Source of the DNA: Betaproteobacteria bacterium
GTDB lineage: Bacteria > Pseudomonadota > Gammaproteobacteria > Burkholderiales > SG8-39
Assembly: GCA_005881595.1 (NCBI GenBank)
Contig: VBBY01000021.1
Coordinates: forward strand, 1 to 39,976
DNA: 39,976 nt
Direction: 5' to 3'
The position numbers and the translations under genes are program-made. Under the pieces are notes generated by a model. That model was not told the DNA's origin, did not search any database, and saw only the letters and a list, made by a program, of their open reading frames with translations. Shown here one piece after another: positions 4,248-20,147 of this stretch (position 1 is its first letter; each line of letters starts with the position of its first letter).

Positions 4248-5326
4248 GAATTCTTGTCCCAATCCTGTCTTTTGGGCGCGCCGGCGGATACCGCGTGCTT
4301 TCAGAGCTTGCGAACAACTGGGTCTCTCGCAATCACGACGTGGATTTCCTGAGTCCGGACAGCAGCGATGAACCTTACTTTCCAACAAAAGCGGAGATTC
4401 GGTGGGTAAACGGCGAAGGGGTTGTTTCCGCGCAACGACAGGCGAAGGCGAAGCCAAGCGGACGCTATCATCTTCAGGCTTTGTCGCGCGGCTTGAAAGT
4501 TGTGGGACATGAGTACGACGTCATACTAGCAAATCACTCGCTGACCGCATGGCCCGTTGCGTTGGCGGCGTGTGGTAACGCGAAGAAGTTCTACTACGTG
4601 CAAGCCTACGAGCCCGAATACTATGCCAACAGGCGAACAATCAAAGGATATGTTCTCGCGTTCATGACGGCGCTTTCATATCATTTGCCGATAAAGCGAA
4701 TCGCCAACTCGCCCATATATTTTCGTTACAGAAACTTGCGGACTTCTTGCTTCGTTCCTCCGGGTATTGATCTTTCGATATTCAAGCCAGGGAAAGATGC
4801 CAAGGATTTAGAGCGTGCAGAAAGTATCGTCATAGGCTGTATCGGACGGTATGAGCCCGAAAAAGGAACGATCTATGTACTGCGCGCATTCGAAAAGCTT
4901 CACCAAAGGGACCGGAGATTTCAATTGCGAGTTGCTTACGGCAATCTGCCGGAAGGTTGGAAACATGACGGCTGCGAGATCGTAGTACCGAAGAACGACC
5001 AGGAGCTCGCGAGCTACTATCGCAGCCTGGACATCCTTGTCGCGCCGGGAACTGTCCAGCATGGGGCGCCGCATTATCCAGTTCTGGAGGGCCTGGCTTG
5101 TGGAATTCCAGTTGTTACCACGGGCTACATGGGTGCGACGCCCGATACAGCGTGGATCGTTGGTAATCGAGATGTAAATTCGATCTGCGACGCCATAAGC
5201 CGACTAGTCGCCGATCCACTTACACGACAGCAAAAATCCAATCAAGGGCGCATTGTTGCGCGCGCGTACTCATGGGACAGCGTCGCTGATCAAATGCTAA
5301 CAGTGTTCAACGGTGAGCTGTCCTAG
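4244..5326 (+). CDS. glycosyltransferase, GT4-like (group 1)
   Basis: IGCIGRYEPEKGTIYVLRAFEKL and VAPGTVQHGAPHYPVLEGLACGIPVVTTGYMGA motifs; overlaps the flippase stop (ATGA). Confidence 0.85.
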   Translation: MRILVPILSFGRAGGYRVLSELANNWVSRNHDVDFLSPDSSDEPYFPTKAEIRWVNGEGVVSAQRQAKAKPSGRYHLQALSRGLKVVGHEYDVILANHSLTAWPVALAACGNAKKFYYVQAYEPEYYANRRTIKGYVLAFMTALSYHLPIKRIANSPIYFRYRNLRTSCFVPPGIDLSIFKPGKDAKDLERAESIVIGCIGRYEPEKGTIYVLRAFEKLHQRDRRFQLRVAYGNLPEGWKHDGCEIVVPKNDQELASYYRSLDILVAPGTVQHGAPHYPVLEGLACGIPVVTTGYMGATPDTAWIVGNRDVNSICDAISRLVADPLTRQQKSNQGRIVARAYSWDSVADQMLTVFNGELS

Positions 5327-5455
5327 TTGTCAACCTCAAGTTACTCACCCAAAACTCGACGTGATAATTGCTGCGGAGAGAACATGCGCTTTATACGCAT
5401 TGGAAAACGAATTAGCGTCTAATCTCACTTACCTGGCGGCGCCCGCCGGCATCGA

Positions 5456-6553
5456 ATGATCTATCTCACTGCGTTTTCCATTCTGGCTGTCGCGTTTGGC
5501 CAGATCCACCGCCTGCGAGCGCCCGCGCTGGCGGCTTGCGTGGCAGCCGCGGTGCTAGCGACGATGGCGGCGTTGCGCGGCGCTGATGTCGGCAGGGACT
5601 TCCTCAATTACCAAGAGTGGTATCAGTTCACCACGGAGGACGCGTCCTTTCTGGAGCGTCCCTTCCACCTGGAAGCGATCTACTTCGGCCTCAACGATGC
5701 TCTCTCGTCGGTCGGATTGCCGTTCCGAGCCTTCCTTTGGGGCATCGCCGCCATCTCCATTTTCATCAAGGCGAAAGTGATCCTGAGCTTTTCGAGCCGG
5801 CCGGCAGCGCCAGCCATCGCGCTGCTCGTATTTGCGCTGACCTTCTACCTACTGCATGACTTCAGCCAGGTCCGCGCCGGAGCGGCGGTTGCTCTGCTCT
5901 TCGCCGGACTTCTCGCGCTAGCCAATGGCAGCCGGGCACGATTTCTTTGCCTCGCCATCCTCGCGTGCGGGTTTCACGCTGCGGCAGTGTTCGGTTTGCT
6001 GTTTCTGCTGCCGGCGCACGGACGTCGTTCCAGGGTCGTCGACGCGATCTTTGTGCTTGGCACGTTCGCAGCGCTGGCAAGCGCACTCGCCGACACCCCG
6101 GCGGTGGGGTTCGCGTCGGAGTGGGCCACCGAGCTCGATCCACGGCTCGCAATCTACGTCGAATATTCTCTCACCGGCATCTCGGAAGCGGCCAATCCCT
6201 TTTCGGTTCCCGCCCTTCTGGCGCTTGCTTTGGCTCTGTCCCTGTTCGTCGGGCGGCAGCCGCCGGAAACAGTCGCGACGGGCACTAGAGACCGCGTTGC
6301 CATCACGCATTTGCGCCGCAGCATTCTTGCCGGGGTTTGCTGCCTCGCACTGCTCTATGCGTTCCGGGACATCGGCTTGCGCCTGTACGAGCTGAGCGTG
6401 TCCTTCATTCCGCTCGCGGCTGCCATTCTGTTCTCACGAAAACGAAGAATCCTGCCGAAGTTGCTGCTGGTTCTGTGGTGTGTTGCGACAGCCTACATCT
6501 ACGTCTTCCGGGAAAATCCGCTGGTCGAGCCCTACATGATGAGTCTGTCGTAG
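5456..6553 (+). CDS. EpsG-family polymerase (Wzy-like)
   Basis: Polytopic protein; 'RGADVGRDFLNYQEWYQ', 'FLLHDFSQVRAGAAVALL' resemble EpsG family signatures. Confidence 0.75.
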   Translation: MIYLTAFSILAVAFGQIHRLRAPALAACVAAAVLATMAALRGADVGRDFLNYQEWYQFTTEDASFLERPFHLEAIYFGLNDALSSVGLPFRAFLWGIAAISIFIKAKVILSFSSRPAAPAIALLVFALTFYLLHDFSQVRAGAAVALLFAGLLALANGSRARFLCLAILACGFHAAAVFGLLFLLPAHGRRSRVVDAIFVLGTFAALASALADTPAVGFASEWATELDPRLAIYVEYSLTGISEAANPFSVPALLALALALSLFVGRQPPETVATGTRDRVAITHLRRSILAGVCCLALLYAFRDIGLRLYELSVSFIPLAAAILFSRKRRILPKLLLVLWCVATAYIYVFRENPLVEPYMMSLS

Positions 6554-6558
6554 GCCGC

Positions 6559-7428
6559 ATGGCTGCAGCCCGCGTTCTCGCAGTGGTGGTGGTATTCGGC
6601 AAGGCTCCCAAGGACGTGCCTTGCCTCGCTCAATTGAGGCAATGGCAGTCCGAAGGGCACGAAGGACCGGGATTTCGGCTCTCCCACGTTTTAATTTATG
6701 ACAATAGCGCGGTGTCGTCGGCCGATTTCAAGCCCCTCGTCTCGCAAGACGCGACCTATGTGCACGACCGCGCCAATGGCGGTACACGAGCGGCCTACCA
6801 TTCAGCTCTGCGGCAGGCGCGTGCACTGAAGTGCGACTGGTTGCTGCTTCTTGACCACGACACGGTTTTGCCGGCGGACTATCTGCGCGCTTCGTACGCG
6901 GCCCTGGAGAACAATGCATGCCCGCAAGAAATCGGCGCCATCGTTCCTTCGGTCACCGTGGACGGCCGGGTTGCATCACCGTCCATCATCAAACACTATG
7001 GACGCGTGATACCGGGCCGAGCTGCTCGTGCATCCGCGAGCGGATCTGTAACCGCAATCGCCTCTGCGGCCTTCATACGCACGGAACATATGGCTGACGT
7101 TGCTCCCATCCCGGCCGACTTCGGTCTCGACTATCTCGATCATTGGCTGTTCCGCTCGCTGACTGCACAGGGTCGAAAAATTGCAGTCTCAGGCGCAGAG
7201 GTCAATCATTCATTGTCGGTGTGGGCAATGGAGTCGATGCCGGCGTCCCGCTATCAGAGCATCCTGAGGGCCGAATATCGTTTCCTTCGGGATGCGCCCG
7301 GCTTCGCCGCATCACGTTATTTCGCATGGCACGCGCTCAGAACGTTCAAGATGGCATTGCGCATGCGAACATGGCGCTTGATTCGCACCTGCCTAAAGCA
7401 CTTCGTGACGATCCTCGCGCATCGATGA
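6559..7428 (+). CDS. glycosyltransferase family 2 (rhamnosyltransferase-like)
   Basis: VLAVVVVFGKAP...LIYDNSAVSS...DWLLLLDHDTVLPADYL; start at ATG 6559 rather than the 6337 ORF start, which overlaps the upstream CDS. Confidence 0.8.
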   Translation: MAAARVLAVVVVFGKAPKDVPCLAQLRQWQSEGHEGPGFRLSHVLIYDNSAVSSADFKPLVSQDATYVHDRANGGTRAAYHSALRQARALKCDWLLLLDHDTVLPADYLRASYAALENNACPQEIGAIVPSVTVDGRVASPSIIKHYGRVIPGRAARASASGSVTAIASAAFIRTEHMADVAPIPADFGLDYLDHWLFRSLTAQGRKIAVSGAEVNHSLSVWAMESMPASRYQSILRAEYRFLRDAPGFAASRYFAWHALRTFKMALRMRTWRLIRTCLKHFVTILAHR

Positions 7429-8186
7429 GTCCGCCGCAGCATTCCACCGCCTCGATCGCGATGGCGACATATAACGGCGTCCGATTTTTGGAAGAACAGA
7501 TCCAGTCTGTCCGCTCGCAAATGCAGGCCGGCGACGAGCTCGTCATCGTCGACGACGCTTCGACCGACGGGACGGTGAAGCTTCTCGAGCAGCTGCAGTT
7601 TCCGCGGATGCAGGTCTACCGTAATTCAAAGAACCTCGGCGCGGCAGGGACGTTCGATCGGGCCCTGAGCCTGACCCGTAACGACGTGGTCTTCCTGTGC
7701 GACCAGGATGACGTGTGGCTGCCCGGCAAGCGACAGGCGTTCGTGGAGTCGTTTCTGCGCGATAGGCGATGCAGCGTCGTCGTTTCCGATGCCGAGGTGA
7801 TTGACGCCGTCGGCAGGACTCTGGCTGCGTCATTCATGCAAACGCGCGGCGGATTCAGCGGGTCCTTGTGGTCGACGCTCTACAAGAACCGGTTCCTCGG
7901 GTGCTGCATGGCGCTGCGTCGGGACGTGCTGCGCATGGGGCTGCCTATTCCGCCTACGGTGCCCCAGCACGACATGTGGCTCGGCCTGCTCGGCAGAGAA
8001 ATTGGCAACGTGCACTACCTTTCGGCCGCGTATCTTCGCTATCGGCGGCATGAGAGGAATACCAGCCCTTCGCGCCCTGCCTCGATACCGACCATGGTGC
8101 GCTGGCGTGCATCGCTGCTGTTATTGACGCGGCGGCGACTATGGGAGCATCGGGCGCGGCGGGCGGGTGGCCAAAGCCAGGAGTGA
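7425..8186 (+). CDS. glycosyltransferase family 2
   Basis: ASIAMATYNGVRFLEEQIQSVRSQMQAGDELVIVDDASTDGT, FLCDQDDVWLPGK; ATGA overlap with the upstream gene; start at 7425. Confidence 0.9.
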   Translation: MSPPQHSTASIAMATYNGVRFLEEQIQSVRSQMQAGDELVIVDDASTDGTVKLLEQLQFPRMQVYRNSKNLGAAGTFDRALSLTRNDVVFLCDQDDVWLPGKRQAFVESFLRDRRCSVVVSDAEVIDAVGRTLAASFMQTRGGFSGSLWSTLYKNRFLGCCMALRRDVLRMGLPIPPTVPQHDMWLGLLGREIGNVHYLSAAYLRYRRHERNTSPSRPASIPTMVRWRASLLLLTRRRLWEHRARRAGGQSQE

Positions 8187-8342
8187 CTAGCCGCCTCGGA
8201 TGCACCTCGTTGGCGACGAGTACTAGGTGATGGTCCTCGCACTCTATGGCCAGCCTAGTTACGTCGACGAGCTGCGAGACCTCATGGTTGCGGCGCACTT
8301 GCGCTGTGTGCGCCTGAGCACGTATATAGCCCGTTCGTAGTA

Positions 8343-8373
8343 TTGACAGATGTCCCGCGGCGCGAGGTAAGCT
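8343..8373 (+). promoter_or_regulatory. possible sigma-70 promoter (TTGACA-N19-TAAGCT)
   Basis: TTGACA at 8343-8348, weak -10 TAAGCT at 8368-8373, about 75 nt upstream of the fused transferase gene. Confidence 0.3.
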
Positions 8374-8448
8374 AGTACCTGAGGGTTCGGAGCGGGGTTC
8401 GCGAGGCCCAGGTTCCGCCCGAAGCCTTATTGCAGGGGGGGACTTGGG

Positions 8449-10863
8449 GTGCCCGGCATCGCTATTGCGATAACGGTACTTAGTGCCGCTCTTTCAGCGT
8501 GGGTCGGCGCACGCCTGCTCGCCGGCGGCGCGTGGGTGCGGCAGCCCGGCGTCGACGAGAGCTCGCACAGTCTCCGCAAGGTCCACAGCAATCCCACACC
8601 CCGTGTCGGCGGCATCGCCGTTGCGCTCGGCGTTATCTGGGGCTTGCTCTCGGCCGGGGTCTGGCAAGGGCAGATGACGCTGGGGGTTCTGCTGCTGGTC
8701 TGCATCGCGCCCGGGCTTCTGTGGGGGCTGATCGAGGATCTTTCCAGGCGCGGCGCGGTGCTCGTGCGCCTGGCTTTCACGGGCATCTCGGCGGCGCTGG
8801 GTTTCATTCTGCTCGACACCCGCATTACCGGTGTCGACCTCCCTGTTCTGGACCATCTTCTCGCGATTCCCGCCTTTTCGTTTGCCCTCACCGTAGTGGC
8901 CGTGGCGGGGGTGGCGAGCTCGATCAACATGATCGACAGGCTGAACGGCCTGTCGGGGTTCACGACGCTGCTGGCGGCCCTCGGGCTCGCGCTCGTGGCG
9001 TGGACGGTGAACGACGCGTTCGTCTTCACGGCCGCGTGCGCGGTGGCCGCGAGCCTGGCCGGGTTCGTCCTGGTCAGTTTCCCGCGCGGGCGGATTTTTC
9101 TCGGCGACGGCGGGGCGTATTTCGTCGGGCTGGTGCTGGCGCTGCTTTCGCTCATGCTGGTGCAGCGGAACACCGAGGTCTCGGCGTGGTTTCCACTGGT
9201 GCTCCTCGCCTACCCGATCTGGGAGACGCTGTTCACGATGCTCCGGCGCTGGCGGCACGGAGTGTCGCCGCTGCGCCCGAACGCGCTGCACCCGCACACG
9301 CTCGTGTATCACCGCGTCGTGCGCTGGAAGCGCCGCAGCGCCACCGCCTCGGACACGACGCGCCGCAATTCGACTGCCTCGCTCGCCCTGTGGTGGATAC
9401 CCGCCGTGTGCTTCGCGCTTGCGGTGGCGTTCTGGGACCGCACCGGCGTTCTGCAGCTCGCGTCCATCGGCTTCATCCTCGTCTACGGCTTCATCTACCG
9501 GCGCATCGCGCGCTTCGGCGTGCCGCGGTGGCTGGTGATCCGCGTAAGGCCCGGGCAGGCGCCTGTCAGCCCGGCATCGGCGGGCGCGAAGATCGTTTTC
9601 GTGAACCGGTTCTTCTTCCCCGACCTCTCTGCGACCAGCCAGCTGCTTACCGAGCTGACGCTCGACCTCGCGGAGCGCGCGGAAGTCCACGTGGTGACTA
9701 GCCGGCTGAGGTACGACGATCCCGCCGCGCGGCTTCCGGCCCGCGCGCAGTATCGGGGTGTAACGATTCACCGCGTCTGGACAGCCGGCTTCGGCCGGTT
9801 CTGCCTGCGCGGGCGCGCGGTCGACTACCTGACTTTCTACTTCACCTGCGCGGTGCGGCTGATGTCGCTCGTGCGCAGCGGCGATGTGGTGGTCATCAAG
9901 ACCGATCCGCCGCTGCTGTCGATTGTCGCCGCGCCGATCGTCCTGCTGCGCGGCGCGAGGCTCGTCAACTGGCTGCAGGATATTTTCCCGGAGGTGGTCG
10001 GCGCCGTCGGCATCCGGCTTTTCAGCGGCCGCCTCGGCCGGCTGGTGCAAAGGCTGCGCGACTGGTCGCTTGCGTCGGCGGAGGTCAATGTCGTGCTGGG
10101 CGACACGATGCGCGAGGTGCTGCGCCGGCGCGGGATAGCCGAGCGGCAACTGCGCGTGATCGCAAATTGGGCCGATGGCGCTGCCCTTCGGCCGTCGGCT
10201 CCGGAACAGAACGCTCTGCGCGGCGAGTGGCGGCTCAGCGACCGTTTTGTCGTCGCCTACTCCGGAAACATGGGCCGCGTCCACGAATACGAAACGATCC
10301 TCGGGGCCGCAGAGCTCCTTCGCGCCAGCTGCCGGATTGCTTTCGTATTCATCGGCAGCGGCGTGCGGATGCGTGACCTCAAGGCCGAAGCAAGGCGGCG
10401 CGAGCTGGACCTCAGCTTCATGGACTACCAGCCACGCGAGTCTCTTGCGCAAAGCCTCGGCGCGGCGGACTTGCACCTGGTTTGCCTGCGTCCGCAGGTC
10501 GAGGGACTGGTGGTGCCGAGCAAGTTCTACGGCGCCGCGGCGGTGGGCAGGCCGGTGATCTACATCGGCGATCCTGATGGGGAGATCGGATCCGTCGTTC
10601 GCCGCTTCAATTGCGGCATCGCGGTCAGGAATGGCGACCGCCATGGGCTCGCGAAAGCGATTCGCCACCTGGCGGCGAGCCCGGATCTTTGCCGCGCCCT
10701 GGGCGACAACGCGCGCAGCGCGTTCGAGGCAAACTGGGACCGGACCATTGCCGCCGCGAAGTGGGCCGATCTGCTCGCCGCGGTTTCCGCGCAGGGCCTG
10801 CCGGCTCCGGCCTTCGGCGCCGCAGTCGAGAATCCGGCCGCCGTCCTGGCCGATGGTCCATGA
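8449..10863 (+). CDS. fusion of WecA/MraY-like polyprenyl-phosphate sugar-1-phosphate transferase and WbuB-like GT4 glycosyltransferase
   Basis: N-terminal PNPT motifs (HSNPTPRVGGIAV, INMIDRLNGLSG, IFLGDGGAYFVG, RRWRHGVSPLRPNALHPHTLVYHR); C-terminal GT4 (KIVFVNRFFFPDLSATSQLLTELTLDLAE, NWLQDIFPEVV, VAYSGNMGRVHEYETIL). One uninterrupted 804-aa frame; GTG start. Confidence 0.88.
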   Translation: MPGIAIAITVLSAALSAWVGARLLAGGAWVRQPGVDESSHSLRKVHSNPTPRVGGIAVALGVIWGLLSAGVWQGQMTLGVLLLVCIAPGLLWGLIEDLSRRGAVLVRLAFTGISAALGFILLDTRITGVDLPVLDHLLAIPAFSFALTVVAVAGVASSINMIDRLNGLSGFTTLLAALGLALVAWTVNDAFVFTAACAVAASLAGFVLVSFPRGRIFLGDGGAYFVGLVLALLSLMLVQRNTEVSAWFPLVLLAYPIWETLFTMLRRWRHGVSPLRPNALHPHTLVYHRVVRWKRRSATASDTTRRNSTASLALWWIPAVCFALAVAFWDRTGVLQLASIGFILVYGFIYRRIARFGVPRWLVIRVRPGQAPVSPASAGAKIVFVNRFFFPDLSATSQLLTELTLDLAERAEVHVVTSRLRYDDPAARLPARAQYRGVTIHRVWTAGFGRFCLRGRAVDYLTFYFTCAVRLMSLVRSGDVVVIKTDPPLLSIVAAPIVLLRGARLVNWLQDIFPEVVGAVGIRLFSGRLGRLVQRLRDWSLASAEVNVVLGDTMREVLRRRGIAERQLRVIANWADGAALRPSAPEQNALRGEWRLSDRFVVAYSGNMGRVHEYETILGAAELLRASCRIAFVFIGSGVRMRDLKAEARRRELDLSFMDYQPRESLAQSLGAADLHLVCLRPQVEGLVVPSKFYGAAAVGRPVIYIGDPDGEIGSVVRRFNCGIAVRNGDRHGLAKAIRHLAASPDLCRALGDNARSAFEANWDRTIAAAKWADLLAAVSAQGLPAPAFGAAVENPAAVLADGP

Positions 10864-10913
10864 GAGAATTCCAACCAAGCCTTGAGAGAAGGCGCCGTGG
10901 GGAGAGACCCGGA

Positions 10914-11590
10914 ATGGTTCGCTTGCTCGCAGCAGTTGCATTGGCCGCGGCGCTGCCGCTGGCCGCTTACGCCAACGGGGTGGTCCAGTCGATGAAGGGC
11001 GATGTTCGGGCCGGTCCCGTGGGCCAGACGGCCAGAACGGTGGCTGTGGACCAGCGCCTCACGCCCGGGACGGCGGTGGTGACGGGAGCCGACGCGCAGG
11101 TGGTCCTGCGCTTCGACGACGGCCAGCAGGTCGTGCTCAACCAGAACACCGAGTTCCGCATCGTCGATTTCCGCTATGACGCGAGCGACGCGAAGGTGGA
11201 CCGCACGGTGTTCGACCTGATCAAGGGCGCGCTGCGGATGGCCTCGGGCGCGATAGTCGGGCGCAACCGGCAGGCGGTCGCGCTTCCGTTACCAATGCCG
11301 CAGGCACTGTGGCGCTCGGCGCAGGGACCTTCGGCACCGTCGCCACTTCGGCGGCGCTGGCGACCGCGATCCCGGCTTCGGCGCTGCCGGCGGCCGCTTC
11401 GGCGGCGTTCAGCAGCATGAGCGCCGCGGCCGGCGTCGCCGCGGCAGGCGGCGCGTCCGCGGGTGCGGCCGGAACGGGCGCGGCCGGCGGCGCGGGCGGC
11501 GTCGGCGCGGCCGGGGTCGCGGCGGGAGCCGCGGCGGCGGCCGGGGTCGCGGCGAGCACCAGGAAGTCGAGCACGACCTCGCACCACTGA
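10914..11590 (+). pseudogene. FecR-domain secreted protein, frameshifted / internally deleted
   Basis: Frame 1 from ATG 10914: signal peptide + FecR-like (GVVQSMKGDVRAG...VVLRFDDGQQVVLNQNTEFRIVDFRYD...LIKGALRMASGAIVGRNRQAVAL), then an Arg/Pro-rich out-of-frame tail. The expected continuation (SVTNAAGTVALGAGTFGTVATSAALATAIPASALP...) lies in another frame and ends at 11590. Confidence 0.6.
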
Positions 11591-11621
11591 CCATAGCTGC
11601 CGACCGCGCAATCGCTCAGGA

Positions 11622-11652
11622 AAAGGCCCCCATGCGGGGCCTTTCTCTTTTG
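11622..11652 (+). terminator. intrinsic-terminator-like hairpin overlapping the yjbH-like start codon
   Basis: AAAGGCCCC-catgc-GGGGCCTTT (9-bp perfect stem, 5-nt loop) followed by pyrimidine-rich ctctttt; the loop contains ATG 11632. Confidence 0.65.
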
Positions 11653-14457
11653 GTGGCTTCGCTTTTTCTCGCGGTGCTGCCGGCGTCAGTTCTCGCCGCC
11701 GAGCCGAGCGTCACCGGGCAAACCGGGCTGATCAGCATGCCCGACGCGCGCTTCGCGCCGGAGGGAAGCTGGCGCACCGGCATGAGCTTCATGCGCCCCT
11801 ACCAGGCGCTCTGGACGAACGTCACGCTGTTCCCCTGGATGGAAGGCTCGTTTCGCTATACGCGCATCTACCACGTTCCGGGCTTTCCCGAAGACCAGGC
11901 CATCGGCTACGGCGACTACAAGGACAAGTCCTTCGACGCGAAGCTGCAGCTCGTTCCCGAGCGGGGAGCCTGGCCGGCGATCGCGCTCGGAGCGCAGGAC
12001 GCCGGCGGCGGCACCGGGATCTTCCGCGCGCTGTACGGCGCGGCCTCCAAGCGCGTCGGCGACGTGGACTTGACCCTCGGCTACGGCAGGCAGCGCATCG
12101 ACGGCGTCTTCGGCGGCGCGCGCTGGTCGCCGTCGAGCCTGCCGAGCTGGAGCCTGGTCGCGGAGTACGACGCCTACAACTACCAGCGCGATTTCAGCTC
12201 CGACCTGTCCGGCGCGGCGAATTACAAGAAGGCGCCGGCGGTCGGCATCGAGTACCGCTGGGGCTGGCTCGGCGCGAAGCTCTTCTCCTCGCACGAGCAC
12301 CTCGGCTTCAACACTTACATCAGCGTGCCGCTCGAGCAACGCGAGTTCATCCCGAAGGTCGACGAGCCGGCGCCGTACACGAAGATCAACCCGCGCCCGA
12401 CCGAAGCGCAATGGCAGGAGGACGACCGGCACCGCGCGCGCCTCCTGCGCGCGCTCAGGGAGCAGGACTTCCGGAACGTGCGCATCGGCTACCACAACGG
12501 CCGGCTCGAGGCGAGCCTCACCAATTTCCGCATCTCGTCGATGCCGCGCGCGGTCGGACGGGCAGCGCGCACCATGCTCTCCTTCGCGCCGCTCGAAGTC
12601 CGCGAGCTCCGCATCACCTACCTGGAAGGCTCGCTGCCGGTCACCACGTACACGTTCATCAACGTGCCGCTCCTGCAGCGCTACTTCAACGGCCTCGCCT
12701 CGCGCGGGCAGCTCGCCCCCTACGTGGCGATCGAGTACGCCGGCCCGGACGCGCTGCGCGAGGAAGCCGACCGCGCCGAGACTCTCATCACCTTCCAGGA
12801 GCCGCTGCCGCAGAGCCTGGTGCTGCAGACCAACGAGGCCGACTTCTTCGCGCTGCGCGGCGAGAACGTGGCCGGAGGCCGCGTGTACGTGCGGCCCGCC
12901 TTCTCCAGCTTCTTCAACGATCCGAGCGGCGCTTTCCGCTACGACCTGTCGATCGTAGGCAACTACAGCCGCGCGCTCGCCGAGCAGACCTTCCTGCAGG
13001 CGCAGGCCTACCTGCCGCTCTACGAGAACATCAGCGACGTCACCAGTCCGTCCAACAGCGAGCTGCCGCACGTGCGCTCGGACATCGCCGAGTACCGGCG
13101 CCACAACCACCTCAAGCTGTCGCAGCTCCTGGTCAACCGGTTCTACCATTCCTCGGAGCGGGTCTACGCCAGGCTCTCGGGCGGCATCTACGAGGAGATG
13201 TTCAGCGGCGCCGGCGGGCAAGTGCTGTATCTGCCGCGCGACGGCCGCTGGGGCGCCGACCTCGACGTCAACTGGCTCAAGCAGCGCGACTTCGACGGCT
13301 GGTTCGGCCACCAGCACTACGAGACGGTGACCGCCATCGCCTCGCTCAACTACCGCATGGCGCACGGCGTCACCGGCACGCTGCGGGCCGGGCGCTTCCT
13401 CGCCCGCGACGAGGGCGTGCGCGCCGAGGTGAAGCGGCGCTTCGCCTCGGGCTTCGAGGTCGGCGCCTGGTACACGGTGACCAACGGCAACGACATCACC
13501 TCGCCCGGCTCGCCCTCGAACCCCTACTACGACAAGGGCGTGTTCATGCTGTGGCGCCTCGACACGCTGCTCACTCGCGACACGCAGGCCGTCGCCGGCT
13601 TCTCGCTCTCGCCGTGGACGCGCGACGTCGGGCAGATGGTCGCCTCGCCCGGCGACCTGTACAGCCTGCTTGAGGACCCGGTCTACCGCATGCACTCGCG
13701 CGACGGCCTCTCGCGCTTCGGCGACCGCGACGACGACTACGACCTGCCGTCGCTGGGGACCGGGCGCGACCGCATCTGGCCGGACCTGGTCGCCGACGAC
13801 TTCTTCAGCGGCCTGCGCGCCGCCGGCGAGGTCGACTGGCTGCGCACGGCGGCGCTCGGCACCGGGATCGTCGTCGGCTCGGCGCTGCTCGACCATGCCG
13901 CCTGGCGCTTCGCGGAGCGCCACAAGGACGCGCACTGGATGAAGCAGGGCATCCGCGTGGGCAACGCGCTGCCGGTAGCGGGGCTAGGGCTCTCGGCCGT
14001 CTTCGCGTTCGACAAGTCGCGGCCGCGGCTCTCCGACACCGGGGTGGCGGCGCTCGAGGCGGGCGGCCTGGCGCTGCTGGCGAGCAGCGGGATCAAGTAC
14101 GTCGCCGGGCGCGCCCGTCCGACGGCCGGGGTCGGCCAGAGCGACTTCCACGCCGGCAGCCGGGACGACCGCTTCCATTCCTTCCCGTCGCGCCATGCGG
14201 CGATCATGTGGGCGGCGGTCACGCCGTACGCAAAGGAGTACGGCATGGAGTGGCTCTACGGCGTCGCCGCGCTCACCAACGCCGCGCGCACCGGCAGCCG
14301 CGAGCACTGGCTCTCCGATACCGTCGGCGGCGCCGTGCTCGGCTATGCCATCGGCAGCCTGGCATGGGAAGCGCGCCGCGAATCGCGTCGCGGCAAGAAC
14401 GGGCCGTCGCTGGCGGTCGGACCGGGTACAGTCGGGCTGGCATGGGAGCTGCCGTGA
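11632..14457 (+). CDS. YjbH-domain (WbfB/DUF940-type) outer-membrane exopolysaccharide protein fused to a C-terminal PAP2 phosphatase
   Basis: N-term: EPSVTGQTGLISMPDARFAPEGSWRTGMSFMRPYQALWTNVTLFPWMEGSFRYTRI (YjbH). C-term carries the PAP2 motifs KYVAGRARP, SFPSRHAA, ARTGSREHWLSD. Single frame. Confidence 0.88.
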   Translation: MRGLSLLVASLFLAVLPASVLAAEPSVTGQTGLISMPDARFAPEGSWRTGMSFMRPYQALWTNVTLFPWMEGSFRYTRIYHVPGFPEDQAIGYGDYKDKSFDAKLQLVPERGAWPAIALGAQDAGGGTGIFRALYGAASKRVGDVDLTLGYGRQRIDGVFGGARWSPSSLPSWSLVAEYDAYNYQRDFSSDLSGAANYKKAPAVGIEYRWGWLGAKLFSSHEHLGFNTYISVPLEQREFIPKVDEPAPYTKINPRPTEAQWQEDDRHRARLLRALREQDFRNVRIGYHNGRLEASLTNFRISSMPRAVGRAARTMLSFAPLEVRELRITYLEGSLPVTTYTFINVPLLQRYFNGLASRGQLAPYVAIEYAGPDALREEADRAETLITFQEPLPQSLVLQTNEADFFALRGENVAGGRVYVRPAFSSFFNDPSGAFRYDLSIVGNYSRALAEQTFLQAQAYLPLYENISDVTSPSNSELPHVRSDIAEYRRHNHLKLSQLLVNRFYHSSERVYARLSGGIYEEMFSGAGGQVLYLPRDGRWGADLDVNWLKQRDFDGWFGHQHYETVTAIASLNYRMAHGVTGTLRAGRFLARDEGVRAEVKRRFASGFEVGAWYTVTNGNDITSPGSPSNPYYDKGVFMLWRLDTLLTRDTQAVAGFSLSPWTRDVGQMVASPGDLYSLLEDPVYRMHSRDGLSRFGDRDDDYDLPSLGTGRDRIWPDLVADDFFSGLRAAGEVDWLRTAALGTGIVVGSALLDHAAWRFAERHKDAHWMKQGIRVGNALPVAGLGLSAVFAFDKSRPRLSDTGVAALEAGGLALLASSGIKYVAGRARPTAGVGQSDFHAGSRDDRFHSFPSRHAAIMWAAVTPYAKEYGMEWLYGVAALTNAARTGSREHWLSDTVGGAVLGYAIGSLAWEARRESRRGKNGPSLAVGPGTVGLAWELP

Positions 14458-15137
14458 GAAAAACGTGGTCTGTCCCTGTTTTTCTGTTGTTCGTTTCAAG
14501 CGCGCAAGGTCAAGGCTGCCGCGTGCTCGATCCCGAGCTGCAGGGGAGCTACGCCGGGCCGTGCGTGAACGGGCTCGCCGAGGGTCATGGCAGCGCGAGC
14601 GGGGCGGCGCAATACGAGGGCGGGTTCAAGGCCGGGCGCAAGCACGGCAAGGGCGTGAAGGCCTGGCCCAATGGCGATCGCTACGAGGGCGATTTCGTCG
14701 AGGACCGCAAGGAGGGCGTGGGCGCCTATGCGTGGGGCCGCGGCAAGTGGGCGGGCGAGCGCTACGAGGGCGCTTTCAGCAACGACCGCCGCAGCGGCTT
14801 CGGCGTGTACCGCTGGCCGAGCGGCGATGTCTACGCCGGCCCCTGGAAGGACGACGCCTTCGCCGGGCCGCCGACGCAGATGATGCGGGCGCGCGCGCAG
14901 TTCGAGAAGGAAGCGCGCGCCGCGGTGGCGAAGGAAGGCCAGAAGGTCTGCCGCGAGATGCAGGTGGGGATCGGCGGCCGCGACTGGATCCGGGGCGTGG
15001 TCGTGGCGACCGGCGAGGACCAGGTCGCGGTGCGCATCGACGACGCCGGCCGGCAGCCGCACGTCGTCGCGAACGTCGAAGTCCACAGCGGCGAAGTCGT
15101 CTGGGATGTCCCGCAGGCGTGGACGCCGTGCTTCTAG
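14454..15137 (+). CDS. MORN-repeat periplasmic/secreted protein
   Basis: YEGGFKAGRKHGKGVKAWPNGDRYEGDFVEDRKEGVGAYAWGRGKWAGERYEGAFSNDRRSGFGVYRWPSGDVYAGPWKDD; signal peptide VRKTWSVPVFLLFVSSAQG; GTG start overlapping the upstream TGA (alternative ATG 14442). Confidence 0.8.
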   Translation: MRKTWSVPVFLLFVSSAQGQGCRVLDPELQGSYAGPCVNGLAEGHGSASGAAQYEGGFKAGRKHGKGVKAWPNGDRYEGDFVEDRKEGVGAYAWGRGKWAGERYEGAFSNDRRSGFGVYRWPSGDVYAGPWKDDAFAGPPTQMMRARAQFEKEARAAVAKEGQKVCREMQVGIGGRDWIRGVVVATGEDQVAVRIDDAGRQPHVVANVEVHSGEVVWDVPQAWTPCF

Positions 15138-15577
15138 CTGGGATGCAGGCAGGCGCTCGAGCGCAAGCCGCTCTTCCGCAGGTCGCCCGCGATCTGGTCG
15201 CAGCTCGCCTTCGCCGTTTCCTCCGGTCCGACCACCGCGATGCGCAGGCCGCTCGACACGACCCAGTGCAGCCGCACCGGCTCGCCGCTATGAACCGCCA
15301 GGTCGATCGCCTCGCTCTTGCGCTCGCAGCGCGCGAAGACCACCTTGCACTCCTTGCATTGGTCCTTCACCGGGCCGAGAAAGCGCTCGTTCGCCGCGCC
15401 GCAATCCCGGCGGTCGTCCGTAGGATCCATCAGCGCGGTGTAGCTGACGCCGTCGGGCGAGGCGATCCTCACCACCGGGTAATAGACCTGGCTCGCGACG
15501 TGCATGTACGCCAGCACGCCGCCGGCTGCGATCATCGCCAGGGCGATGGCGGCGTTTTTGACTGCGCTAGCCGCCAC
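15134..15577 (-). CDS. hypothetical membrane-anchored Cys-containing protein
   Basis: MAASAVKNAAIALAMIAAGGVLAYMHVASQVYYPVVRIASPDGVSYTAL...CKECKVVFARCERKS; convergent with the MORN gene. Confidence 0.55.
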   Translation of the reverse strand: MAASAVKNAAIALAMIAAGGVLAYMHVASQVYYPVVRIASPDGVSYTALMDPTDDRRDCGAANERFLGPVKDQCKECKVVFARCERKSEAIDLAVHSGEPVRLHWVVSSGLRIAVVGPEETAKASCDQIAGDLRKSGLRSSACLHPS

Positions 15578-15872
15578 CCCTGCCGCCGCCTTTGCCCGGG
15601 TTGTTCGGGCCTTTCTTGCTCTTGTTGAGGTGCGAGGTGGACGACGAGCCCGCGCTCGCGGCTCTCGCCGCGGCCGCGGCGACGGCCGCCGCGGCTACGC
15701 CCGCGGTGGGACCCCCGGCTGCGGCGCCTGCCGCTCCGCCCACGTTCGCGCCTGCTGCCGTGCCGCCGGCCGCTCCGCCCGCAACCCCCGGAGGCGTGCG
15801 CGGCTGCGCGACGACAAGACCCGAGATAAACAATGCAGACAGCAACAGCCCTGCCTTGCTATAACTTCCCAT
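15567..15872 (-). CDS. low-complexity Ala/Gly-rich secreted protein with basic tail
   Basis: MGSYSKAGLLLSALFISGLVVAQPRTPPGVAGGAAGGTAAG...SSSTSHLNKSKKGPNNPGKGGGRGGG; signal peptide; purine-rich RBS (caggggaaag) upstream of ATG 15872. Confidence 0.55.
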   Translation of the reverse strand: MGSYSKAGLLLSALFISGLVVAQPRTPPGVAGGAAGGTAAGANVGGAAGAAAGGPTAGVAAAAVAAAAARAASAGSSSTSHLNKSKKGPNNPGKGGGRGGG

Positions 15873-15951
15873 GGTTACTTTCCCCTGATTCACGGTATCG
15901 CTAATAATTCGAGCTTGCAACAGGTGTACAGATAATCACCCATTCTGTTCC

Positions 15952-17259
15952 ATGACCAGACCGGTCCTCGAATACCAGAGCGGCTTCGGCAACGTTCATG
16001 GCACCGAGGCGACGCCGGGCGCCCTCCCGGTCGGGCAGAACGCGCCTCAGAAGCCGCCCAAGGGCTTGTATGCCGAGGTGATTTCCGGAACTTCGTTCAC
16101 CGCGCCGCGCGCCGAGAATCTCTCGGCCTGGCTCTACCGGCTGCGTCCTTCGGCGCTGCACGCACCGTTCCGTCGCGTCGACGACCGGGCGATCCGCTCG
16201 GGGCCGTTCGATGAAGCCGAGACGCCGCCCAACCGGCTGCGCTGGAATCCGTTGCCGATTCCCAACGCTCCGGCCGATTTCCTGGACGGATTGATAACTC
16301 TTGCCGGCAGCGGCGAGCCGGCCGCGCAGGCTGGTGTTGCGGTGCACATGTATCGCGCCAACCGCTCGATGAGCGCCCGCTACTTCGTCGACTCCGACGG
16401 CGAGCTGATGTTCGTCCCGCAGCTCGGCGAAATCCTGATTTTCTCCGAGCTGGGAAAAACGTGCGTCGCGCCGGGCGAGATCGGCGTCGTGCCGCGCGGC
16501 ATCAAGTTCAAGGTCGAGCTGCTCGAGAAGCAGGCTCGAGGCTATCTCTGCGAGAACTACGGCGCGCCGTTCCGCCTGCCCGAGCTGGGGCTGATCGGCG
16601 CGCAGGGGCTCGCGCAGGCGCGCGACTTCCTCGCGCCGGTGGCGGCGTTCGAGGACCAGGACGCGAAGTGCGAGGTGATCAACAAGTTCATGGGCGGGCT
16701 GTGGTCCGCCGAATGGAGCCGCTCGCCGCTCGACGTGGTGGCGTGGCACGGCCGCTACGCGCCGTACAAGTACGATCTCGCGCGCTTCATGACGATCAAC
16801 ACGGTGAGCTTCGATCACGCCGACCCGTCGATCTTCACTGTCCTGACCTCGCCTTCCGGGCAACCGGGCATCGCCAACGTCGACTTCGTCATCTTCCCGC
16901 CGCGCTGGCAGGTGGCCGAGCACACTTTCCGCCCGCCGTGGTTCCACAGGAACGTGATGAGCGAGCTGATGGGCCTCGTGCACGGCGTCTACGACGCGAA
17001 GGCGAGCGGCTTTCTGCCCGGCGGCGTCTCGATCCACAACTGCATGGCGGCGCACGGGCCGGACCGCGCGACCTTCGACAAGGCCTCGGCGGCCGAGCTC
17101 AAGCCGCAGAAGATCGAGAACACCCTCGCCTTCATGTGGGAGTCGCGCTGGGTGTGGCGGCCCACCAGCCTCGCGCTGAGCGCCCCCGAGCTGCAGAAAG
17201 ACTACGACAGCGTCTGGGACGGATTCAAAAAGGGGACAGACCCCATTTCTTCCAAATGA
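15952..17259 (+). CDS. hmgA: homogentisate 1,2-dioxygenase
   Basis: [83 protein letters not shown]. Confidence 0.96.
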
Positions 17260-17284
17260 GAAAAATGGGGTCTGTCCCCATTTT
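17227..17284. repeat. inverted pair of GGGGACAGACCCC / GGGGTCTGTCCCC REP-like repeats
   Basis: aaaaaggggacagaccccatttct ... agaaaaatggggtctgtccccatttt; the arms are reverse complements across the hmgA/fahA junction. Confidence 0.85.
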
Positions 17285-18536
17285 GGACGAGACGCACGAT
17301 CCCGGTTTGAAGAGCTGGGTCGAGTCGGCGAACGCGCCTGGCTGCGACTTCCCGATCCAGAACCTGCCGTTCGGCATTTTCAGGCGCAAGAATTCGAAGG
17401 AGGCGCGGCGCGCCGGCGTCGCCATCGGCGACCAGATCTTCGACCTCGCCGCGCTCGGCGTGAAGAGCGGGCCCACGCTGAACGGCCTCGCCGCGATGGG
17501 CCGCCCGGCGTGGAAAAAGCTGCGGAGGGAAATCTCAAAAGCGCTTTCCAGGCCGAGTAAGTTATTCCAAAAGCACCTGGTGCCGATGAAGCGGGCGGAG
17601 CTGTTCCTGCCGGTGGCGGTCGGCGATTACACCGACTTCTACACCTCGGTGTTCCACGCCACCAACGTCGGCCGGCTGTTCCGTCCCGATAACCCGCTGC
17701 TGCCGAACTACAAGTGGCTACCGATCGGCTACCACGGCCGCGCCTCGTCGGTGGTGGTCTCGGGCACTCCCGTGGTACGCCCCAGCGGCCAGACAAAATC
17801 TCCCGACCAGGCCAGCCCTTCCTTCGGGCCGAGCAAGCGCCTCGACTACGAGGCCGAGCTCGCCTTCGTCATCGGCCCGGGAAATGCGCTGGGGAAACCC
17901 ATTCCCCTGCAAAAGGCCCTCGACCACATCTTCGGCGTCGTGCTCCTCAACGACTGGTCGGCGCGCGACATCCAGGCCTGGGAATACCAGCCGCTCGGCC
18001 CGTTCCTCGCCAAGAGCTTCGGCACCACGATCTCGCCCTGGGTGGTGACCCTCGAAGGTCTAGCGCCGTTTCGCTGCCCGGCCTTTGCGCGCGCGGCCGG
18101 CGATCCGCAGCCCCTGCCCTACCTGTTCGACGAAGCCGACTCGCGCGCAGGCGGCTTCTCGATCGAGGTCGAGATGTATCTGCGCACCCCCAAGAGCCCC
18201 GCGCCAGTACGGCTCTCGCACGGCAACTACAACAGCTCCTACTGGACGCCGGCGCAGCTCATCGCCCACCACAGCTCGAACGGCTGCAACCTGCAGCCGG
18301 GCGACCTGGTCGGCTCGGGAACCATCTCCGGCCCGGCGCCGGACTCGGCCGGCTCGCTGCTCGAGCTCACCCAGGGCGGCAAGGCGGCGCTCGAGCTGCC
18401 GAGCGGCGAAGCCCGGACTTTCATCGAGGACGGCGACGAGGTGATCGAGCGCGCCCGCTGCGCGCGCGAAGGCCATGCGACGATCGGCTTCGGCGAGGCA
18501 GCGGGCCGCGTGCTGGCGGCAAGGGAAGAGAAATGA
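17256..18536 (+). CDS. fahA: fumarylacetoacetase
   Basis: [89 protein letters not shown]-terminus MRKMGSVPI is repeat-derived. Confidence 0.95.
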
Positions 18537-18564
18537 GAAAAATGGGGGCTGTCCCCTATTTTCT
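18533..18564 (+). repeat. single copy of the same repeat (ATGAGAAAAATGGGGGCTGTCCCCTATTTTCT) at the fahA/dsbB junction
   Basis: Matches the 17256-17284 copy with small substitutions. Confidence 0.8.
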
Positions 18565-19051
18565 CGGCGCGCTCGCCTGCGCGCTGCTCCTCGGCTTCGG
18601 CTATTACCTGCAGTACGTGCGCGGGCTGGAGCCTTGCCCGCTGTGCCTGGTGCAGCGCGGATTTTTCTACGCCGTTGGGGTCGTTTTCATCATTGCTGCC
18701 TTTCACAACCCCGCCTGGATTGGGGCAGTGCTCTACGCAACTCTGGCTTTCTTGTTTGCCGCGGGCGGCGCGGCGACGGCGTCGCGCCAGGTGTGGCTGC
18801 AGCACCTGCCGCCCGACAAGGTGCCGCAGTGCGGGCCGGACCTGTTCTTCATGCTGGAGAACTTCCCGCTCGCGCAGGCGCTGAAGAAGCTCGTCGCAGG
18901 CAGCGGCGAGTGCGCGGCGGTGGACTGGACCTTCCTCGGCCTGTCGATCGCCGAGTGGTCGCTCGCCTGGTTCGTGGTCCTCGGCTGCTACGCCCTGTGG
19001 CTCGCGGTGCGCGCGATCAGGTCCAGGACCTCGATGTTTCTCGGCGCCTGA
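18533..19051 (+). CDS. dsbB: disulfide bond formation protein B
   Basis: YLQYVRGLEPCPLCLVQRGFFYAVG (CxxC), VPQCGPDLFFMLENFPLAQALKKLVAGSGECAAVDWTFLGLSIAEWSL. Confidence 0.92.
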   Translation: MRKMGAVPYFLGALACALLLGFGYYLQYVRGLEPCPLCLVQRGFFYAVGVVFIIAAFHNPAWIGAVLYATLAFLFAAGGAATASRQVWLQHLPPDKVPQCGPDLFFMLENFPLAQALKKLVAGSGECAAVDWTFLGLSIAEWSLAWFVVLGCYALWLAVRAIRSRTSMFLGA

Positions 19052-19749
19052 CGGAAGACTTCTCCGATCAGGAGCAAGGCAGGCCCGCCCGCGCAACGCG
19101 CGGCAAGCTCGGGCAGCTCGCCGAGCTTGCCTGCGAAAAACCTCTGCTCCGGAGACGAAACGTTTTCGGCGACGGCCACCGGCATGTCGCGCGGCATGCC
19201 GCGGGCGAGCAATTCATTCCTGATGGGCACGGCATCCCCGGCGGCCATGTAGAGCACCGCGGTGTCAGCGGCGCGCACCGCATCGACCCAGCCGGAGGGC
19301 GCCTCGTCCTCGCCGACTCGCGGCGTCGCGAACACCACGCTGCGCGAAATACCGCGGCGAGTAAGAGAGACCTTCGCTTCCGCGCTGGCGGCGAGCGCGG
19401 CCGTGACGCCCGGGACGATCTCCACCGGGATTCGATTCGCGATCAGGAAGCTGATCTCCTCATGGGCGCGGCCGAAGAGCATCGGGTCGCCGCCCTTGAG
19501 CCGCACCACCACGCGGTAGCGATGGGCGGCGTCGGCGAGCCGCTTGTTGATGAAGCGCTGCGCGGTCGAGTGGCGGCCGCAGCGTTTGCCGACCGCGACT
19601 TTTTCTCCCTTGACGAGAGAAAGGATCCCCTCGGGAACCAGGGCGTCGTGGAAGACGATATCGGCCTCGCCGAGCAGCCGGGCCGCGCGCACGGTGAGGA
19701 GGTCGGGTGCACCCGGCCCGGCGCCGACGAGATGGACAGTTCCGTTCAC
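18988..19749 (-). CDS. cobA: uroporphyrinogen-III C-methyltransferase
   Basis: GTVHLVGAGPGAPDLLTVRAARLLGEADIVFHDALV; VVRLKGGDPMLFGRAHEE; VEIVPGVTAALAASA; 3' end overlaps dsbB convergently. Confidence 0.94.
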   Translation of the reverse strand: MNGTVHLVGAGPGAPDLLTVRAARLLGEADIVFHDALVPEGILSLVKGEKVAVGKRCGRHSTAQRFINKRLADAAHRYRVVVRLKGGDPMLFGRAHEEISFLIANRIPVEIVPGVTAALAASAEAKVSLTRRGISRSVVFATPRVGEDEAPSGWVDAVRAADTAVLYMAAGDAVPIRNELLARGMPRDMPVAVAENVSSPEQRFFAGKLGELPELAARCAGGPALLLIGEVFRQAPRNIEVLDLIARTASHRA

Positions 19750-20147
19750 CCTCGCCTGCGGAAGAGCGGCAGGGGCCGCTTGACCGACGCCTGGTAGGAC
19801 TCGCTGAAGTCGTTGAACGCGGCGAGCGCTTCTTCGGCGTCCTCGCCGTCGCGCAGCAGGAAAGCGTCGAAGCCGCAGCTCTCCAGGTAGAAGAGGTGGT
19901 CGCGCCCGACCTGGCCGACGGCGCGCAGCTCGCCCCGGTAGCCGTAGCGCTCGCGCAGCAGCCGCGCGATCGAGAAGCCGCGGCCGTCGCCGAACTTGGG
20001 GAAGTTCACTTCGACGCGCGCGACGCGGCCGAGCCGGTCCGCGACCGACGCCGGATCGTCTGTCGGCTCCAAGCGCAGCACCTCGCCCTGCTCAGGCGAG
20101 GGCGCGCTCTCGCTCGCGATCCGACGCCCTCTGATGAGCGTTGCCAT
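19746..20147 (-). CDS. DUF934 family protein (sulfur assimilation associated)
   Basis: RVEVNFPKFGDGRGFSIARLLRERYGYRGELRAVGQVGRDHLFYLESCGFDAFLL; between cobA and the sulfite reductase. Confidence 0.85.
   Translation of the reverse strand: MATLIRGRRIASESAPSPEQGEVLRLEPTDDPASVADRLGRVARVEVNFPKFGDGRGFSIARLLRERYGYRGELRAVGQVGRDHLFYLESCGFDAFLLRDGEDAEEALAAFNDFSESYQASVKRPLPLFRRRG

Follow-up and report, generated by a model that had tools for sequence, protein, structure and literature searches.

A start codon inside a terminator-like hairpin: a probable leaky terminator between a FecR/YjbE-like gene and a YjbH-PAP2 gene

In a 39,976-nt stretch of contig VBBY01000021.1 from a Betaproteobacteria bacterium (hereafter the window), a hairpin resembling an intrinsic terminator follows a FecR-domain gene, and its loop carries the ATG of the next gene, a YjbH-PAP2 gene. 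This arrangement raises the question of whether the hairpin is a terminator of the ordinary kind, a cover over the initiation region, or a switch in which termination and initiation exclude one another, as a reading made from the sequence alone (the sequence-only reading) had proposed. The features concerned are listed in Table 1.

Table 1. Positions in the window of the hairpin and of the features around it
Feature	Position	Strand	Remarks
FecR-domain gene with YjbE-like Ala/Gly/Ser/Thr-rich tail ending TTSHH	10914..11590	+	Pfam FecR 3.8e-05, translations, alignment with L032
Shine-Dalgarno-like AGGAAAAGG	11618..11626	+	5' foot of the hairpin; predicted to be mostly paired in the folded RNA (pairing probabilities)
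Candidate intrinsic-terminator hairpin	11622..11644	+	9 bp, loop CATGC; arms kept in L003
YjbH-PAP2 gene	11632..14457	+	likely ATG start within the loop; signal peptide MRGLSLLVASLFLAVLPASVLA, judged by eye to be cut before AEP
U-rich tail CTCTTTT	11645..11651	+	C-interrupted; also serves as signal-peptide codons

The hairpin, AAAGGCCCC-CATGC-GGGGCCTTT, has a perfect stem with 6 GC pairs, and 5 of the 7 nucleotides of its tail are T. Its fold energy in the folding model is -15.4 kcal/mol alone and -18.2 kcal/mol with additional pairing of the Shine-Dalgarno side and the tail. The existence of the hairpin and the ATG in its loop are confirmed. The window has two perfect stems that reach 9 bp or more, close on a loop of 3-8 nt, and run into a T-rich tail: this hairpin and a repeat element at 17262-17284. 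Sixty dinucleotide shuffles of the window gave 0.15 such stems on average. The combination AAGGCCCC-N3-8-GGGGCCTT has one occurrence in the entire 3.79-Mb genome. A terminator scan of 5-20 kb placed the hairpin first in its list of 19 terminator-like sites. Among 85 terminator candidates in 206 kb of the genome, the hairpin alone overlaps a called start, a base rate obtained with a loose terminator scan and a rough home-made gene caller, so that many of the candidates are likely chance matches inside genes. The features that mark an intrinsic terminator are present: a U-rich tract directly after the stem (unbroken in the same-genus relative described below), a GC-rich stem of at least 5 bp with a short loop, and a location after a gene's stop codon. 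No curated Rfam family matched; the one terminator-like hit, at 17.2 bits, stayed below the threshold of 50. The claim of the sequence-only reading that the hairpin has the look of an intrinsic terminator serving the FecR gene is supported.

The ATG at 11632-11634 opens an open reading frame (ORF) of 941 residues with YjbH (3e-139) and PAP2 (2e-12) domains, and no in-frame ATG, GTG, or TTG lies between the preceding stop and 11632. Its product begins with the leader given in Table 1 followed by AEPSVTGQTGL, which by eye is a standard signal peptide. Two Shine-Dalgarno-like motifs precede the codon, AGGA (11618-11621) 10 nt upstream and AAGG (11623-11626) 5 nt upstream. Because the signal peptide is complete and these motifs lie upstream, ATG 11632 is likely the best start of the gene, which agrees with its earlier placement in the 5-nt loop. 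Most orthologues at the order level have YjbH and PAP2 in a single fused protein, whereas matches at the class level stop near residue 690 without PAP2. Two loci (L101 and L102) encode longer YjbH-PAP2 proteins (open frames of 1415-1533 aa), in which the part that matches residues 231-378 is present once more, after the part that matches up to residue 679.

On the upstream side, the Pfam FecR match is just above the cutoff, and alignment with the near-identical relative L032 revealed a 94-bp frameshifting deletion near 11282, which takes away the end of the FecR domain. The shifted frame stops at 11418-11420, and the ancestral stop is the TGA at 11588-11590. The deletion is either a real mutation or an assembly error. 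In the window, the FecR reading frame is thus not intact up to the hairpin. In relatives, the product of the gene before YjbH is either small and YjbE-like or a FecR protein whose C-terminal tail resembles YjbE (L005, L007-L011, L013, L016, L036, L038, L039, L041, L042, L044-L047, L053, L055, and L056); the latter looks as if it were a FecR-YjbE fusion.

We collected orthologous loci by genome searches, scanned their upstream gaps for terminators, and picked the YjbH starts by eye from the signal peptides. In 23 loci, the window and L032 included, the upstream gene ends in a YjbE-like tail (ending in H). A terminator is located between the two genes or at their junction in 19 of these: (i) in 16, all more distant relatives, it lies 17-107 nt upstream of the YjbH start; (ii) in the same-genus relative L003, it abuts the start; and (iii) in the window and L032, it overlaps the start. 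No clear terminator was found in the upstream gap of the other 4 (L005, L044, L053, and L056). L032, the sole relative obtained by a scan of genome contigs, is 95% identical over 130 residues and has the hairpin and ATG unchanged, an identity that is uninformative because the relative is too close. Its contig (QIAN01000044.1), about 93-96% identical to the window, lies in a metagenome-assembled genome labelled Acidobacteria and is possibly misbinned. L003, the only other genome of the genus in which the gene was found (69% identity), keeps both GC arms (AAGGCCCC and GGGGCCTTT) with different flanks, has the loop TGACC without an ATG, and continues into an unbroken T tract; its YjbH start is probably a TTG immediately before or after the hairpin. 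The loop ATG therefore occurs only in the window and L032, and is absent in L003 and the 16 others. Because the stems of the distant orthologues are wholly unrelated, what is conserved is the putative terminator after the FecR/YjbE-like gene by its position, not by its sequence. In five loci (L042, L046, L013, L036, and L041), only 17-30 nt separate the terminator from the start, too short a distance to accommodate a promoter; we infer that polymerases must often arrive at YjbH by reading through. A sigma-70 scan found no promoter at 5000-20000 of the window, and for want of a promoter-like sequence we abandoned the idea that YjbH transcription starts internally or on a leaderless mRNA.

Taken together, the hairpin is probably a conventional Rho-independent, leaky terminator of the FecR/YjbE-like gene, into which the YjbH start has moved in this lineage. 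The terminator would end transcription of the upstream gene, with a fraction of the polymerases passing on to YjbH-PAP2; such partial read-through would keep the product of the upstream gene, most likely a cell-surface polysaccharide gene, in excess over the outer-membrane YjbH protein. Against this reading, the interrupted tail may terminate weakly, and 4 of the 23 loci have no clear terminator. The start appears to have shifted into the terminator in this species and one near-identical relative, where the GGGGCC arm and the U tract would double as signal-peptide codons (CGG GGC CTT TCT CTT TTG, R-G-L-S-L-L). A terminator can merge into a signal peptide in this way because U tracts encode Leu and Phe, that is to say, the hydrophobic leader would tolerate terminator-derived codons. 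The hairpin would also enclose the ribosome-binding region, and terminated transcripts would hardly start a stop-less YjbH fragment. Read-through transcripts would likewise be poorly translated, with the initiation region enclosed. The folding model puts the price of opening that region at about 23 kcal/mol, so very low YjbH translation is expected unless something opens it, which also counts against the reading. The overlap with the loop ATG is most likely lineage-specific, burying the initiation region as well, and is either selected or a by-product.

A doubtful elaboration of the leaky-terminator reading is that the overlap was selected: the stem would protect terminated transcripts, which would otherwise offer an AUG but no stop codon, from non-stop translation, and its stability would combine with read-through to determine how much YjbH is made. 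We consider it unlikely that the terminator is weakened by its interrupted U tract and that the hairpin is mainly a translational seal keeping YjbH low. The tail CTCTTTT set against the unbroken T tract of L003 would fit a seal, as would the predicted pairing of most of the Shine-Dalgarno side in the read-through RNA; against this, the terminator scan still accepts the T tail and ranks the site as its top match, a seal would require initiation to be the limiting step, and L032, with its identical hairpin, is too close a relative to inform. A start at TTG 11650, GTG 11653, or another codon, which would leave the hairpin merely a leader terminator, is very unlikely, even though most orthologues start downstream of the terminator and L003, without the ATG, may start at a TTG just past the U tract. 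The two downstream codons, named as alternatives by the sequence-only reading, are disfavored: they yield leaders of 15-16 residues that lose the only basic residue and hence the charged n-region, and they have no Shine-Dalgarno sequence at proper spacing, whereas ATG 11632 gives the complete signal peptide.

Highly improbable, finally, is the proposed switch. In that reading, a ribosome that loads on AUG 11632 would block the hairpin and transcription would continue, and transcription would stop when none loads. The Shine-Dalgarno-like sequence and the AUG do overlap the stem, and 30S binding and the hairpin would be physically exclusive. However, the stem is conserved in L003 without the ATG, and in 16 relatives the terminator is separate from the start. 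The sequence-only reading had set against its own switch the case in which orthologues start downstream and the stem is kept only as a terminator, and its proposed comparison of stems gave largely this picture. In the folding model, no competing antiterminator lies within 12 kcal/mol, and the best terminator-free fold is 12.1 kcal/mol worse. Li et al. (2015; PMC4824070) measured a loss of only about 10% in termination when an active AUG preceded the terminator by 30 bp; in their explanation, the first ribosome cannot yet catch up with RNA polymerase so near the start of a gene. From the usual footprints, only a few nucleotides past the AUG would have emerged when polymerase is at the U tract, and a seated 30S subunit is unlikely. 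In experiments with tR2 in Escherichia coli, a ribosome halted at a stop codon ceased to interfere once the terminator lay more than 27 nt downstream, and termination was then fully efficient (PMC4824070; review PMC7858274). Here the distance from the ancestral FecR stop to the stem is 31 nt, and from the A of the ATG to the end of the U tract 20 nt, so that little control of the terminator is expected from the upstream ribosome or from the initiating one. A regulatory switch therefore finds little support.

Among known systems, the leaky terminator suggested here most resembles intrinsic terminators with partial read-through between operon genes, with which it shares the GC-rich stem, the U-rich tail, the location after a stop codon, and a position conserved in orthologues. 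Unlike an ordinary intergenic terminator, it has the start codon of the next gene in its loop and a C-interrupted tail. In the tR2 W48 construct (Li et al. 2015; PMC4824070), the beginning of a downstream ORF likewise coincides with a terminator; that construct is plasmid-borne and its terminator follows the AUG by 30 bp, whereas the present hairpin has the AUG within its loop. Ribosome-mediated attenuators of the trp and pyrBI type share a terminator near a translated start; by contrast, neither a comparable antiterminator fold nor an overlap of start and terminator kept in orthologues was found here.

The E. coli K-12 yjbE-yjbF gap contains a similar hairpin, ATAACCACACTCCGGTGTGGTTAT, which also follows the gene of a small Ala/Ser/Thr-rich secreted protein and precedes the remainder of the operon; yjbE and yjbF are described as one operon (Ferrieres 2007, as cited in PMC3599342). 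It differs in its 10-bp stem, its sequence, its poor T tail, and its location shortly before the yjbF start, and at the present locus yjbH follows directly and is fused to PAP2. A literature search for a link of yjbEFGH to a terminator returned nothing relevant, and the main text of an E. coli 3'-end mapping paper makes no mention of the yjbE 3' end. Many relatives of this organism thus seem to share, between their YjbE-like and YjbH genes, a probably leaky terminator whose position is conserved and which in this lineage appears to have been absorbed into the first signal-peptide codons.

A palindromic repeat, GGTCTGTCCCC, was also checked and is not the same element as the hairpin. Its AAAATGGGGTCTGTCCCCATTTT and GGTCTGTCCCTGTTTT forms have 36 matches in the genome, both strands counted. 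In the window, the repeat occurs at 14467-14482 and at 17262-17284, and supplies the first codons and the beginning of the signal peptide of the gene after YjbH (VRKTWSVPVFLLF). It is also present in the start region of L004 (genome G037), where it supplies the same parts of YjbH itself (MRKMRSVPICFLFL).
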